Shown: positions 12,301-28,402 of the stretch, piece after piece
Layout of the letters: each line of letters starts with the position of its first letter
Numbering within the stretch: the first letter of the stretch is position 1
Origin: Jaapia argillacea MUCL 33604
Lineage: Eukaryota > Basidiomycota > Agaricomycetes > Jaapiales > Jaapiaceae
Length of the DNA: 28,402 nucleotides
Reading direction: 5' to 3'
Assembly (NCBI GenBank): GCA_000697665.1
Contig: KL197723.1
Coordinates: 754,854-783,255, forward strand
Made by a program: the position numbers and the translations under genes
The notes under the pieces: generated by a model
What the model saw: only the letters and a program-made list of their open reading frames with translations
Told to the model about the DNA's origin: nothing
The model's database searches: none

Positions 12301-12397
12301 AAAGCAGCGAAAAGCGGACCAGATTATTACTCACAAGCTCACCAGCTGAATTTCCCTAGAAATAAGTAAGCATCCTGGTCACGTTGACTTGAGTGGG

Positions 12398-12950
12398 GCA
12401 AGGAGCAGAGGCGAGAATCAGGTCTATGCATATGTGGGACTGGATATCGGTGGTGTCATTTGTTATATAGACAGGGAATCATAGGAACTGAAGGCAGAAG
12501 CGACTTTGGATGTTGTAGACCATGGCACTCCAGACGGGTGAGGATAACCCCCCCTGACATATTGTTGGCAAAGCCATCATAATTTGACCAAAATATACCT
12601 GTCTGTGGCTTGGGAATGTAGCCAACTGCATAGTTTAGTTATACCATTCAGTATTCCTGAGTGCCTTAGTCACATGGCAGAATTCAAACTATATCCTCAA
12701 AATATGCTGCCTGCCTGTGTCAAGAAAACATATTATAAAATAGTCCTAAGGATATACCCCAAGGATGAAGCCATGTGGTAATTTTTGAATAACTTGGTAG
12801 CATTGCAAGTAGCAGGACAACTGGTGAGGAGAGGGGAGATAATTAGCATGCCAACTTATTCAAAAATTACCACATGGCTTTGTCCTTGAGTCATATTATA
12901 AAAATGACCTGACAGCTACCTGCAAAACGATAGACATTTCAGAAATTCAA
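12398..12950 (+). repeat. Left terminal inverted repeat (with MITE inside)
   Basis: Reverse complement of 16909-17289 over its whole length, for example CATATTGTTGGCAAAGCCAT, AATATACCTGTCTGTGGC, GTCAAGAAAACATAT and GATAGACAT near its inner edge. The two arms differ by scattered substitutions. After GTCAAGAAAACATAT the match is interrupted by about 165 bp holding a MITE, then resumes at CAGCTA.CTGCAAAA.GATAGACAT. Confidence 0.85.
12755..12891. mobile_element. MITE inserted in the left inverted repeat
   Basis: About 137 bp with ~41-bp inverted ends: CAAGGATGAAGCCATGTGGT (12760) and its mirror ACCACATGGCTTTGTCCTTG (12869-12888), continuing through a perfect AATTTTTGAATAA stem. The direct repeat CATATTATAAAA flanks it at 12729-12740 and 12892-12903, and the right arm of the host transposon has neither the MITE nor the second copy. 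About 14 bases between the left direct repeat and the inverted end are unpaired, so the duplication could instead be the TA inside it. No coding capacity. Confidence 0.75.
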
Positions 12951-14273
12951 CGTGTGATCCTGATTTGGAAAGTAGGCCGAAAGCAGAAGGTGATTGCCAC
13001 AACGCTCACCCACCCAAACGACTGCTGGCCACCTGCTAAATCTACGATGATTCTCACTCGTCTTTGTTGCGGTGGCCATGAGCAACCACCGTCACATCCC
13101 AGAGGAGCAAAAGTACTGATCCCCATCATGTCTGCTCACCTCAAGACTTGGCAAATAGCAGCTGTGACTGGATTCAGCTTGTGTACTGTCCAATGTGTCC
13201 TTGAGCTTTGGCGGAACACAGGTGGTGTTGTTCAGGTTCCTCTGCAAAATGGGTGGCCTTGAGAGCTGACTGCTGTTGATGTTGCAGTAAGTGTTTCATT
13301 TTTTTTAGTTCTCATTTGCTCACAGTGTCATAAGTAGTATCTTGAGTCACTTATTGAGTGAACACCTGACCTGTACCTCTCAGAGCTGCGAGATGCACTC
13401 TGGGAGGCCCACCACATTGATGTTGACAAGACTACCATTTCCCATACTCTCAAGCGTCATGGTTTCTCTCGAAAGCATGTGAGTTGCTTGCTGCCACTCC
13501 ATATCCATTTGAATACTCAATGTTCGAGTTATTTTGATAGCTGACACAAGCGGCTAGAGAACAGGACAAAGAAAAACGTGATGCCTACCAGATGCTGGTT
13601 GGTGAGCACTACCCTCCCAAAACTCTCATGTTTGTGGATGAGGCTGCCTGCAACTGCCACACCTCCAAGTGCACCAAGGCCTGGGCTCCAATTGGAGACT
13701 GTGCTTGATACCATGATTTCTTTGTCTGAGGAATGCGGTAAGTCTCGCTTCGTCTCACTTTCTATTCACTCTGATGGATGTGACAGTTTCTCGATCCTTC
13801 CTGCCATTTCCCTTGATGGAGTCCTCCACCTGGATATTCTGCTAGATCATGGACTGGTGTCGAGTTCTCACACTTTGTAGATGCCCTCCTGGACAAAATG
13901 AATCCTTATCCACAGAAGAACTCTGTCCTGGTAATGGATAATGCTAGTTCCCATCATTTTGAGGGCTTTGAGAATTAGTTGAAGCTCGGTATGTCTCTAT
14001 CTTGCTCCAGATTTTTTTTTTGCTGAATATCTAGTCATGTGCAGTGGAATGAGACTCTTATACCTTCCAGCATACTCTCCAGACTTCAACCCAATCGAAG
14101 AAGGCTTTTCTGCAATGAAGGCTTGGATTCGTCAGAATAGGGACTGGGTTCTTGGTGAATTGTCAGGGGAAGAGACTTGTGATCCTTATGGAATGCTTTA
14201 GCATGCTGTTTTTACTTCTATGACCACAGAGAACATCACTGGATGGTATAGGGATTGTGGTTATGTAGTGTAG
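12927..14273 (+). pseudogene. Tc1-type DDE transposase pseudogene
   Basis: Fungal DDE transposases of this type cut and paste the element by its ends. The N-terminal part has helix-turn-helix-like sequence (12927-13260, MSAHLKTWQIAAVTGF). Then come LSELRDALWEAHHIDVDKTT, ISHTLKRHGFSRKH, QAAREQDKEKRDAY and LMFVDEAACN (first catalytic Asp, ~13632), LPAISLDGVLHLDI, VDALLDKMNPYPQKNSVLVM followed by DNASSHH (second Asp), and YLPAYSPDFNPIEEGFSAMK (catalytic Glu). Counting across the frameshift, Asp-to-Glu spacing is about 34, as in Tc1. Introns: ~13479-13541, 13738-13786 (49 bp) and ~13990-14045. Damage: TGA at 13260, 13706 and 13727 where CGA fits, TAG at 14199, and frameshifts near 13848 and 13972. 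The in-frame codon at 12927 is ACG where the right inverted repeat has ATG. Inactive as it stands. Confidence 0.88.
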
Positions 14274-14509
14274 AGCCAATGGTATTATATGTATTGATGA
14301 TTGTGAGTCATGGGAACTCTGGGCAAGTAGCACAGCCACTTGGCGAATTCTCCCACCTCTATCAGTCTTGAATTTCATTGACAAACTGATACTCATAAGA
14401 AATGATATTGCAGTGGTAAAGACAGTAATGATCAAATGAGTGCAGTGACAGGTTGAGCTGACACTGGAACAGAAAAAGAAGGCAGGGCAAAAATGAGTGT
14501 TAATTTTAC

Positions 14510-16786
14510 TTAGGTTGGATTGATGTTCTCATCGCCAGCAACCACACTGACATCCTCACACCTTGCATACTTCGCTCGATGATCCCCTTTCCCAGCTTTG
14601 TTCACCATCTTCTTCACCTTGCAACGAAAGTCCTTCACAATACCTTCCGGCATTCCAACCTTCTCAACATAAAACTTGGACTTGAAGTGGGTCACACTGC
14701 GAGCATAGATAACACCTTGCTTGATTAAAGCATCAGCATACTCAGGATAATTCACAAGTGGGAGGGTCTCGTGAAGGGTGGCGAGAACCTCTTGGATAGG
14801 AATGGGGGTGGGAGTATCGTCATCATCAGACTTCAACTCCAAGCTAGAATCGTCACCAGATTCATTGGATCGGCAGCGCTTACGTGAGGAGGAAGGAGTG
14901 TTGTTTTGAATGTCACGAAGGGGGGACTCAATGTGAATGTGGATGGGGGGAAGTGTGGAACCACAACGGGATTGCTTCCTCTTGCATGTGAGGACACGCT
15001 GAGTGTTCGCCTTGAGATTTTCAAAGTTGAGCATGTTTGGCATGACATTACAGGTATCAGGTACTTGTTTGTCGTGTTGCAGGTCAGATGGACATGAGTA
15101 CATACCACACCAATGAAGAGACGAGGTACTCACGATCATCCTTGCCCACAATGTGATTTCTGACAATCTAAGGAACACATGCTAGTCTTCGTCATGGGGT
15201 GCGTCAGGGTTTACATAGCACCAGCAGTTGGGATTACTAACACTGTGTGTCTTGCAGCAAAGCTTTTCCTTGACAAGGCGCAGTTCGGCCATATACCCCA
15301 TCTCTGTAAGGACGGGTTCCTTATCCTTTTTTCCATTCTTGTCCTTGGGGTTGTATGCCTATAGACAGGCATCAATCATCAAGATCCCACAGATTTACAC
15401 ACAGGCAGAACTGCTCACCATATTTGAAATCTCAAGAACTACTTTGTTCTTGATCGCCTGGCATTGCTTCTCGACAACATCACCAATCGCACGCCCAACA
15501 TCAGCATCAGTGTTGAGAGTATGCCAGGGGTCACGCTTTGGTTCTCCAGGGAGCTTGTAGCCAAGGCAAGCTCTGGCACGTGGGATATCCATGTGAGCAC
15601 AGAGGCGGGAAAGGAAGTCCTCAGGGCTAAGATCCGTCTTGAACAGAACGATGTGTGTTGTTACTGGTTGGTCGGAATTCAGAGCAGTGTTGAGGGGGAT
15701 CAGAAGGTCAATCTCCCCAATGTGTTCTTAGCAGAACTTCAGTCATTACTATCACTCAGGGAGTTCTTCACCAGCCGTATCAATCTTCACCAACCACTAT
15801 TTCGCTGCTTGCACCTTCCACACTCAACTGACTCCTTCAGTACTTGGTATATAGCACCCTTAGCTACTCCCTGAAGTGTCTACATACTCAGAATAATAAA
15901 ATTCCATTACATCGAAATACGGGAAGCAAAAAGATTTGCATACACCCTTGTGAAAAATCGAGTATTTGTGAGATCCTCTGGGCTTAGCTTGCTCGATCAG
16001 GCTGAAATACAGGAATTCAATGTTAAATGTAATACTGTACACACTGGCACCATCCGATTGGCAGCCTGCCCTGCAGAAGGCACTCAGTGGATGGGATGAA
16101 GGGCAATCTTCACCAGGCCAGCCACCAAGCATGACACATTCAATGTCCGCCCATTTTCCCATATGCCATGTGAGGTCTATCGGTTACCTTTTACGGTTGT
16201 CACAAGACCAAGGGGCAGTGACCTGCATGTGATGGCTTGGTGAAGAACTATACTGGTGTATTGAGAATCCTGCCAAGGTCAGTATTTTGCTGCTGATGGG
16301 CTCCCTGTCCACATTTCCCTTAGACAATCTTAGTAGAGTTTGTAGAACATCATATCTTGCATAGGTTTCCATTGAACCAAAACCCATACACAGGAAACTG
16401 ACGGAGGGACAGGGAAAACATCACTTCTTGGTGGGGAACTCCCTGAGTGATAGTATCCCCCAAAAAGTCTGCAAGTACTCACCTTCCCTTCTGTTCGGAA
16501 CAGGAGCAGGGGGACTGACAAACTGGAGTCGTGGATCAATGTTGGGATCAAGCCCAAATTGGTGTTGTTGGTCCATCTGAGCAGCATAGAAGTGTGCAAC
16601 GGCGATGTCTTGTGGTCGAGGGGGTGGCATCAGACCCATACCAAGCAAGAAGGCCCTGAGCTGTCCAGGCTGATACTGGGGTTGAGGCGCTGCGGGGTTG
16701 GCAGGTTGGCCCATCTGCCCAGGTGGATACTGGTGCTGAGTGGGTTGGTTACCATATGCATACTGGGGGTAAAACGGAGCAGCCAT
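14510..16786 (-). pseudogene. Transposon passenger gene: PB1/ubiquitin-like plus SAM-like protein
   Basis: The minus-strand start ATG is at 16786, about 120 bp inside the right inverted repeat. Exon 1 (to 16483) encodes a Pro/Gln/Tyr-rich leader (QYAYGNQPTQHQYPPGQ) then RPQDIAVAHFYAAQMDQQHQ. A second block (~15715-15419) encodes THIVLFKTDLSPEDFLSRL and GRAIGDVVEKQCQ, suggesting a beta-grasp (PB1/RA-like) fold. Next exon 15358-15134 (AELRLVKEKLC, SEITLWARMI); intron 15359-15418. The last exon (~15075-14510) has a basic and acidic Ser-rich linker, then a SAM-like domain (YPEYADALIKQGVIYA, FYVEKVGMPEGIVKDF) and a basic tail. Exons between 16483 and 15715 are not resolved. Damage: TAG at 15182-15184, and Cys in basic contexts (RKRCRS, DFRCKVK, YARCED) where Arg would fit. 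I know similar multi-copy hypothetical proteins in Agaricomycetes; no function is established. Beta-grasp plus SAM recalls Ste50-like adaptors, but that is inference. Confidence 0.65.
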
Positions 16787-16908
16787 GGTAGTGAGATACG
16801 GAAAAGAGGGGATTTTTCATTTTATCACATCTCATCGTATCGTCGAGTGAGCGCAAGCGGTGGCATGAGCCCCAAATTAGGAAACTCTGCAAGCGACTGC
16901 AAACACTC

Positions 16909-17289
16909 AAGAAATTCTGAAGATGTCTATCATTTTGCAGTTAGCTGGAAGGATATGTTTTCTTGACATAGACAAGCAGCATATTTCGAGGATGTGGTTT
17001 AAGTTCTGCCACGTGACTAAGGCGCTCAGGAATACTGAATGGTATAACTAAACTATGCAGTTGGCTACATTCCCACGCCACAGACAGGTATATTTTGGTC
17101 AAATTATGATGGCTTTGCCAACAATATGTCAGGGGGGGTTATCCTCACCCGTCTGGAGTGCCATGGTCTACAACATCCAAAGTCACTTCTGCCTTCAGTT
17201 CCTATGATTCCCTGTCTATATAACAAATGACACCACCAATATCCAGTCCCACATATGCATGAGACCTGATTCTAGCCTCCGCTCCTTGC
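16909..17289 (-). repeat. Right terminal inverted repeat
   Basis: Uninterrupted partner of the left repeat, read on the minus strand from GGGCAAGGAGC at about 17289 to GACATCTTCAGAATTTC at 16909. Because it lacks the MITE it represents the state before that insertion. Confidence 0.85.
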
Positions 17290-17339
17290 CCTGGTCACAG
17301 CATCTCATGCGTCTGGCTATTCCTGCTGCTTTGGTGTGG

Positions 17340-25764: not shown

Positions 25765-27486
25765 TCAAACGGATGGAGGAGTGGATGATGATGATGATGC
25801 CTGGGTAGATGAGCCTGAAGCGGAAGGGGGAGTGGTAGGAGGTCGTGCGCCTGATTTCCCAGCCGCTGCCCTCGTCCTCTGTTTCTCCGCTCTCCTCTTC
25901 CTCTTCCAGGCTATCGATTCCTCATTGATTAGGTTCTCCTGTCCGTCCTCGTCGACCGAGATAGCGTTGCTCACATCAGGATCACCTATTTCTATGTCCT
26001 CCTCATCCAATTCCTTTCCCTTTCCTTTTCCGGTAACCGCATCATCACTGATCAAATTAACCTTTGCCTTCTTCTTCTTATTCTTCTTCTTTTTCCTTTT
26101 CTGTCCAACTTCCTGCACAGCCACCCCCGCATCATCCTCCTCAACCTTCCTCTTCTTCGACAAGCCAGCCACCTTCCTCTCCTCCTTCTCCCCCTGCCAC
26201 TTTGCCTCTCTATCCTCCTTCTTGATATAATGCTTCAATAACCGTCCTTCGTAATCCCTCAAGAGTGCCATCTCAGGTGAAACACATGGAGCCGGAGTAG
26301 TAGGAGTGGGTGTCGGAGCAGGAGGGGGTTGGTGATGGAGTGCGGGGACTCGAGAGACGTTGATAATGTCGGAGAGGATGGGGGTGGGGCCATGGATGTG
26401 TACTTTAGCAGTAGCGACATCGAGAGTAGAGAATTTGCTGGGGAAATCAAGTCGATTGTAAATTTCCACCCAGTTAAGATAGGATGCCGGAAGGACAAGA
26501 CCATCCGCAGTGACTTCTCCCAATCTGAGCATGCCGTCAAACTTGACAAAGCCCTTGATCATTATGGGGTGGAAGACAAGTGAGAAGTTATCCTGAGCGT
26601 GGACAGTAACGAACTGAGATCCGGAAACATAGTACTCCTCCTCAGTAGGAGGGGCCATAATTAGCCAGAGGGCAAGGGTATCGAAATTAGGGAGGGGGGA
26701 ATGAATATCCCCTTCCCCCGAACTTATTAACACCTCCGAATCGATTGAAACTGACCCCAGAAATATTTGGGGGTCAGTATTCAGGGGGGTACCCTTCCCA
26801 ATAGGTAGATCCCAAATTTTGTCGATCCCTAAGACCTCAAAATAAACGTCCAAGGCCTTCAGGCCATCGACTCAGGAGTATGGCATCCAGGAGACATCTC
26901 CAGACTTCCAGAGAACCTCAAAAATCGCTTTGGACTTCGATCCAGCGTGAGATAAAATCTTATCAGTAGCCCACTCAACTGATTGAGCCTCCGGATTAAT
27001 TATCTGAGCATCTAATCACCCAGGAAACAGTCGATCGTCGTTGGGATGAAAAACTCAGAGGAGGGACGCGTGGAAAATGTCGTGAACTCCTCTTTGTTTC
27101 AGATCCGAGGACAAATCGATCTTGTACGAATTATTCCTGAAGTCCTTAGTGATCCTATAGGGACCAATCCACTTAGGTACTAATTTCCTAGCTAGCCCCT
27201 TCGGGTAGGAAATATTCTTAGTGGACAAATAAACGAAGTCCTGCTCCTGGAAGGGAGAGGGCCATTGCTTTCTATTAGCTCCCTGAGTCTGCTTAACCCG
27301 GGCAGAGATAATACTATCATGTGCACCCATAATTGCCAGCTTCATTCGCTGGGCAAAAGTACGGATGCCAGGGTATTCAGCAGGACCAGGATCCTGCCAG
27401 TCAATTGCTCTAGGCATGCATTGTGGGGAACCCAATCCGCCTACTAACGGAATCGCACCATTATACCATTTCAACTGTAACTCCAT
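25765..27486 (-). pseudogene. Gypsy pol C terminus: integrase end, chromodomain-like module, basic tail
   Basis: Integrase C-terminal domain at 27486-27058: AHDSIISARVKQTQGANRK, DFVYLSTKNISYPKGLARKL, VPKWIGPYRI, LKQRGVHDIFHASLL. This part joins new cDNA to host DNA. TGA codons at 27055, 27016 and 26872 follow, each where CGA (Arg) fits. Between them is a chromodomain-like segment (VEWATDKILSHAG, FEVLWKSGDVSWMPYS). From 26871 to 25765 the frame is open for about 365 codons: a segment of unknown fold (SYLNWVEIYNRLDFPSKF), a Pro/Thr linker, two nuclear-localisation-like clusters (SKKRKVEEDD, KRKKKKNKKKKAKV), acidic stretches and a Ser/Thr-rich end. The tail could be one protein with the integrase or a separate product starting near IMAPPTEEEYY; the first is favoured because the frame is shared. 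Nonfunctional as read. Confidence 0.78.
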
Positions 27487-27489
27487 CAG

Positions 27490-28402
27490 GTCGAGCAGAC
27501 AGCATCCCTCTCTTCAGATCGAATCGAACTTGCTAGTTCCATACAGTTTCAGACCCGACATCCCATTCCCTCACTCCTGACAACCACACAGCACTCAGTC
27601 CCATCCCAAATGAAACTCGACTCTCAGTAATTCGCTCCCTCGTCGTTCCGAACTCGGAAATATCCAAACGTCCGAAGGCACGCCCAATTCTCCTAACGAT
27701 TCGATTGTATTCCGGATAACGTCGGATTTTCCTATCCGCTCCAACTCCGAGATTCCTCCCGAGACCAGATGTCCACCATTTCGCCTCCACGTTGCTCAGT
27801 ATCGGGATTTCCGATGTTCTACGATTAGGACTGTATTCGACCCGACGATACGATTCCGATGCACCCGATGCAAACGTTCATAGGAGTCCGGAACATCGGA
27901 ATTCGACTCAAGACTAGTTGTTCACCATCTCGCCTCCATGTCATTCAGTATTGGGAATTCCGACGTTATCAAGTTAGGACCGTATTCGTCCCGACGATAC
28001 AACTCCGATGCACCCGATGCGAACATTCCTAGGACTCCGAGACACCCGATTCGACTCAGATCTCCTCTTTCACCACCTTGGACTTACGACCTTGCACGTC
28101 CCTGGAATCTCGACAATCTTATCAGGAAGTTCTTTATCTCGATGATCCGAGTCCCCGATACACTGCCACATCGCGTTCCGATGATCTGATACTCCGGGAT
28201 TTACAAAGCACTTACATCACTCTCCACACCATCGCTTATCAACTTCTCCACCTCATGTCTGTGCTCTTGCACTGAGTCCTCGATCAGGAAGATATGTGCT
28301 TTAGGTTTCCAAGATTAACTACTATAGATCCTGCTCATCCTGAGGCTTCTGTGCACTTCCCCTTTCGGTCCGATACACCTCTGATAGGACTTCACTCGCT
28401 TC
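27490..28402. repeat. CpG-rich block with ~149-bp tandem repeat
   Basis: Two clear units start near 27769 and 27918 and share CACCAT.TCGCCTCCA, CAGTAT.GG, GTATTCG.CCCGACGATAC, CCGATGCACCCGATGC and TTCGACTCA. A weaker related unit precedes at about 27640-27768, and sequence after 28066 is less similar. CpG is frequent (about six to eight per 60 bases in many lines), whereas most lines to the left have zero to two. Open frames on both strands have no recognisable domain. It abuts the truncated gypsy integrase, so it is probably a separate, younger insertion or rearrangement; its type is unknown. Confidence 0.6.

Follow-up and report, generated by a model that had tools for sequence, protein, structure and literature searches.

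The locus analysed here raises the question of whether a Tc1-type transposase gene and an unrelated multi-exon gene, lying between long inverted arms in the basidiomycete Jaapia argillacea, form one mobile element, and where such an element would end. The window, the whole stretch of 28,402 bp from contig KL197723.1, contains inverted arms at 12396-12733 and 16953-17291 that are continuous over about 340 bp and 93-96% complementary. The original prediction described a single transposon bounded by ~380-bp inverted ends. Our analysis found the long inverted arms with the convergent genes between them, but the arms are not terminal repeats: in the test that the prediction itself had proposed, other copies of the repeat were found to flank neither gene, and the real ends measure 25 bp in the window element and about 100 bp and 215 bp in its full-length relatives, the C40 and C4 elements.

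From 12526 inward, the arm sequence is that of a dispersed fold-back MITE with at least 22 matches in the genome, both window arms included. In the window this MITE is about 600 bp long, carries the end CACTCCAGACGGGTGAGG and is divided by the two-gene element into a left part (12526-12912, plus strand) and a right part (16948-17161, plus strand). Besides the window, seven copies with both ends were identified (L021-L027), most of them about 600 bp in length (L022 about 510 bp, L026 about 1,040 bp), and all seven contain the inner arm sequence without the transposase or the second gene. The other copies start with CACTNNAGACGGGTG or a sequence close to it, and a perfect 3-bp duplication was found in six of the seven. 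The fold-back MITEs are named CACTA-like because of this start and these duplications, the CACT terminus and the 3-bp duplication being the features by which the class was checked. The window MITE is without a 3-bp duplication. At least two subfamilies are represented among L021-L027 and the two window parts, and the left and right arms of L025 and L026 are 94-96% alike.

In two of these MITE copies, L021 and L023, the sequence is uninterrupted where the window carries the insertion, and a preserved empty site, ATGACCTGAAGGATAT, can be read there. In the window this site is broken behind its GA, and a second GA follows the insertion. The empty sites therefore give the exact ends of the inserted element, 12913-16947 (plus strand), and its GA duplication at 12911-12912 (context T-GA) and 16948-16949 (context GA-A). 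An empty site is known for the window insertion only; elsewhere in this study, a duplication means identical flanking dinucleotides. The element is 4,035 bp long, or 3,328 bp after subtraction of a nested element and its TA duplicate, and has 25-bp inverted ends that differ at two positions, CAGCTACCTGCAAAACGATAGACAT at 12913-12937 (plus strand) and CAGCTAACTGCAAAATGATAGACAT at 16923-16947 (read on the minus strand). In-frame stops interrupt both genes, and the transposase gene is further disrupted by a frame break, so that the copy is dead. Judged on its sequence, 12913-16947 is a dead copy of a Tc1/mariner-type transposon with two convergent genes and short inverted ends, which inserted into the CACTA-like fold-back MITE with duplication of GA.

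A single element spanning 12396-17291 has in its favour the continuity of the arms, which are about 95% alike, and a 2-bp match, TG/TG, seen by eye beside 12396 and 17291. Chance alone would give such a match about once in 16 cases, however, and the outermost ends are unlike those of the other two-gene elements, which are CAGC. With the seven gene-free MITE copies and the two empty sites at 12913/16947, this candidate was rejected, and we give it next to no credence. The long arms derive instead from the fold-back structure of the MITE itself. Outside the MITE terminus lies a further inverted stretch of 130 bp (12396-12525 on the plus strand and its counterpart 17162-17291 on the minus strand), for which a DNA search of the genome matched no further copy. 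The window MITE arms differ at one of 103 columns in their outer half and at 10 of 105 in their inner half (Fisher p = 0.0098). L026 presents this contrast likewise (2/105 and 10/103), so that it is not peculiar to the window; the outer and inner differences are 11/103 and 10/102 in L021, 10/103 and 9/103 in L022, 9/103 and 10/105 in L023, 16/103 and 27/103 in L024, 4/105 and 5/101 in L025, and 15/103 and 15/104 in L027. When the window MITE is compared with L021-L023, the inner half of each of its arms is nearest to L021, left to left arm and right to right arm. A conversion-like event is the probable cause of the near-identity of the outer ~100 bp of the MITE and the 130-bp flank; one side together with its flank would have been copied onto the opposite side; the lack of a 3-bp duplication in the window MITE and the contrast between outer and inner identity fit such an event. 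We initially took the outer 130 bp for a palindromic MITE in its own right, about 260 bp long, whose centre, CCATGG, had received the CACTA-like MITE; the presence of CCATGG at the junction on both sides agrees with this. Such a MITE is nevertheless less likely than the conversion-like event, and unlikely in itself: the 3-bp duplication that is perfect in six of the seven other copies is missing from the window, the outer sequence has no other genome copy found, and identity runs unbroken over the junction and drops only within the MITE.

Analysis of the plus-strand gene (13078-14273) revealed a Tc1-type transposase with several exons, broken by in-frame stops and a frame break. One exon matches Pfam DDE_3 (1.5e-9), which bears out the predicted Tc1-type DDE transposase, and DDE_3 was also found in the transposases of the C4 (5.4e-29) and C40 (1.3e-32) elements. 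In the C4 transposase, the only one for which the spacing was computed, 34 residues separate the last two catalytic positions (DD34E), and the helix-turn-helix domains HTH_32 and HTH_33 score above their curated cut-offs. The nearest solved chain is Sleeping Beauty SB100X (E 0.00085). No further copy of the transposase gene came up in a DNA search of the genome; its relatives came from protein searches, which gave at least 19 places. The second gene is present at four of these (window, C40, C4 and C22), whose transposases cluster in the tree with modest support (0.845). The tree was built without C18 and C48, dropped beforehand for short coverage. Among the remaining places, C48 is a 5' transposase fragment (75% identity) with a terminal inverted repeat, where the second gene was looked for and not found; 13 are Tc1-type tree members with zero matches from three second-gene protein queries; and C9 lies outside the examined set.

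The second gene occupies 14510-16786 on the minus strand and is unrelated to the transposase, and the prediction of an unrelated multi-exon gene converging with the transposase between the arms was thus correct. Four exons were delimited by eye, the first three at about 16786-16483, 15726-15419 and 15358-15131 and the fourth ending with the stop at 14510; the gene has one in-frame stop. Introns 1, 2 and 3 lie at the same places, with phases 1, 0 and 0, in the window, C40 and C4 genes (by eye). A protein query from the window found the C40 homologue at E 5e-18 within the C40 locus and 2.5e-4 genome-wide, and the C40 query found the window gene at 1.8e-15 genome-wide. The second gene has no match in Pfam above a curated cut-off; the best weak match, FF_PRPF40A (E 0.0065), was obtained for one of four members, and the other hits were at 0.15 or worse. 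A profile search of solved structures gave a best E of 1.2, and single-sequence folds of two exons (pLDDT 44 and 43) were of no use. For the exon-2 part (alignment A1), a search of viral contigs and prokaryote genomes confirmed no relative. By eye, exons 2 and 4 had been read as PB1-like and SAM-like, but these readings received no support from Pfam, profiles or folds and are not put forward here. Basic clusters are seen by eye in three of the second-gene proteins.

A DNA search of the genome with the second gene found no other copy of the gene; the matches obtained were rejected as extra copies, since they match a nested element in its intron 1. This non-autonomous element (15749-16453, 705 bp) has the end CTATCACTCAGGGAGTTC and a TA duplication. 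Its pattern served as a target control and gave at least 14 matches, compared with 4 when the pattern was reversed; among the former were just four two-ended places (window, C63, C4:308656 and a 2,793-bp relative at C24), all four at TA and too few for a strong comparison. The C24 relative (C24:345239-348031; L035, L108) shares the ends of the nested intron element and contains a long ORF, the start of which resembles a pogo-type helix-turn-helix by eye. Elsewhere in the window, a minus-strand ORF at 27055-27513 resembles the integrase end of a Ty3-type retrotransposon (by eye). For the CpG observed/expected ratio, the nested elements give 0.18-0.47, the left flank a likewise low 0.42 and the right flank 0.63.

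It had been proposed that other copies might share the two-gene layout, the second gene being a constant partner. Within this genome, this is supported. Two full-length elements carry both genes in the same convergent order, one at C40:62458-65961 (3,504 bp, ~100-bp ends, TA) and the other at C4:1454083-1458195 (4,113 bp, ~215-bp ends, TA), and terminal inverted repeats are present in these two and in the window element. Decayed pairs of both genes, likewise convergent, were found at C18 and C22, where the transposase remains are short and no pair of terminal inverted repeats was found. In protein comparison within the locus, the C18 transposase remains give only weak matches (E 2.3e-5 and 0.006); a 117-bp stretch at C18 matches the C4 element at 75% (1.3e-16). 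All five second-gene homologues found with three protein queries (window, C40, C4, C18 and C22) face such a transposase, and the same queries found no second gene in this genome without a transposase nearby. The search covered one genome, and these counts are lower bounds. A single transposase gene, typical of Tc1/mariner though not strictly defining, is not what these five loci contain, each having a second convergent gene.

Derivatives of the lineage are more numerous. TIR-like 21-mers gave at least 43 matches, including the ends of the three elements, versus 2 for a reversed-pattern control. Seven MITEs have ends identical or near-identical to the C4 end (L089, L090, L092, L093, L094, L096 and L097), and L091 (C8:1471159-1471586) and L098 (C39:192804-193231) are 428-bp internal-deletion derivatives of a C40-like element (93-98% identical). 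A 3.28-kb carrier (L100, C12:536138-539419) has 27-bp C4-type ends and a TA duplication; the transposase and the second gene were both looked for in it and neither was found. One piece of this carrier has a weak, below-cut-off match to the C-termini of superfamily-1 helicases (UvrD_C_2, E 1e-4) and, on that similarity, is perhaps a captured gene fragment.

A total of 32 two-ended insertions sharing these ends were used for the analysis of target sites. TA was found on both sides in 15 (L073, L074, L075, L077, L084, L091, L093, L094, L095, L098, L099, L100, L102, C40 and C4), another identical dinucleotide in 15 and unequal flanks in two (L082 AA/GA, L104 TC/CC). The identical non-TA dinucleotides are CA (L072, L088, L101), GA (window, L096, L097), TC (L107, L114 and C12:115291, which joins L105 with L116), TG (L071, L090), TT (L089), AA (L092), AC (L081) and AT (L076). 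All 15 identical non-TA sites and both unequal sites have T at -1 and A at +2 (T-NN-A), and six of six one-ended non-TA ends agree on their remaining side (L083, L085, L103, L106, L111, L113). Two further one-ended sites are TA (L087, L112). TA sites lean towards a preceding T or a following A (18 of 28 sides, 14 TA sites counted). Five ends were first read once the rule had been noted (L111, L113, both ends of L114 and the right end of C12:115291). L086, with its ends lost, L078, and also L115 and L119, for which no second end was found, were left out of the count. Mutated flanks or misplaced ends could mimic non-TA duplications, as the unequal flanks in two of the 32 sites and L076, readable as TA with one extra base pair, might suggest. 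Such an artefact is nonetheless highly improbable: both sides are identical in 15 of 17 non-TA pairs, the outer T and A are kept in 17 of 17, which mutation of TA would not produce, and the empty site of the window insertion is itself TGAA. Since TA duplication, expected of Tc1/mariner, accounts for 15 of the 32 insertions and the rest are T-NN-A, we class the elements as a variant tied to Tc1/mariner through its transposase and not as an ordinary member. From the sequences compared here, it is quite likely that the lineage is of Tc1/mariner type, has an accessory gene as a constant part and uses a target core relaxed to NTAN or TNNA.

Comparison with known systems places this lineage near Tc1 in its transposase. 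Tc1 elements have ends of about 30 bp, a single ORF, a length of about 1,300 bp and a TA target, and some, for example Minos, have ends of several hundred bp, according to PMC7325037. The lineage has in common with Tc1 and Sleeping Beauty a DD34E DDE_3 transposase, helix-turn-helix domains, inverted ends, a 2-bp duplication and MITE derivatives; unlike Tc1, it measures 3.3-4.1 kb, carries two convergent genes and has TA at just 15 of its 32 two-ended insertions. Among Tc1/mariner relatives, TBE and Tec of ciliates have additional ORFs next to their DD34E transposase (PMC7325037). The likeness lies in these extra ORFs, whereas the ciliate elements differ in their three ORFs, the recombinase of Tec and their hosts. 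For Sleeping Beauty, PMC5801840 gives about 1.4% non-TA insertions, with CA, TG, TT, AA, GA and TC the commonest and an asymmetric consensus at such sites. On these figures, 13 of the 15 non-TA sites found here fall among its six commonest dinucleotides, but the proportion is very different, being 15 of 30 identical-flank insertions here, all of them T-NN-A. PIF/Harbinger and MuDR are two-gene DNA transposons, and the MuDR genes are convergent. They resemble the present lineage, as Kolobok does, in combining a DDE transposase with a second protein; their transposase superfamilies, targets and accessory proteins differ from those found here. Kolobok with KolX is described as a two-gene DNA transposon in PMC9587614. 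In the open-access literature searched, no description was found of a Tc1 element from fungi that has a second gene as a constant part or inserts at TNNA.

The DD34E transposase would cut and paste by the ordinary Tc1/mariner route, with a target pocket that may take the T.A pair of a 4-bp core either inside or at its outer position. Other DNA transposons also have a second protein, and by analogy the second gene may encode a transposition accessory protein, although this assignment is uncertain. It might be a nuclear component of the transposition complex acting in end or target binding, assembly or regulation; that it helps assembly or targeting is a guess to which we would give about equal weight for and against. 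The second gene could also be a passenger, a host gene captured once and without a role in transposition, and its lack of a recognised domain and the movement of the MITEs and the C12 carrier without the second gene in cis, as for any deletion derivative, agree with this. We consider a passenger possible but doubtful, given that protein similarity (1.8e-15 genome-wide) and three intron positions are kept where no DNA copies were found, that the gene occurs in three full-length and two decayed copies, and that no transposase-free copy was among the matches of the three queries. The retention of protein similarity and intron positions despite DNA divergence indicates that the second gene stayed coding across a long divergence. 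An anti-silencing or regulatory protein outside the transposition complex would suit an element in CpG-poor DNA (0.18-0.47, with 0.63 in the right flank), as methylation of mobile DNA would produce, and the basic clusters in three proteins, which suggest nuclear entry; the left flank is, however, equally CpG-poor (0.42), and this role appears rather unlikely. Returning to the accessory protein, a further step would be a separate Tc1/mariner lineage in which a dedicated accessory protein shifted the target from TA to an NTAN or TNNA core, a proposal that we regard as tentative. If true, it would constitute a two-protein cut-and-paste system with a 2-bp duplication and its own targeting rule.

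Tc1/mariner is the textbook one-gene, TA-target transposon, and genetic tools such as Sleeping Beauty rely on it. At this locus, nested insertions together with a probable arm conversion can mimic long terminal repeats. The lineage within them has retained its second gene over a deep divergence, with TNNA targets about as frequent as TA, which turns the contribution of an accessory protein to a Tc1-type transposase, and the contacts behind the TA rule, into testable questions.
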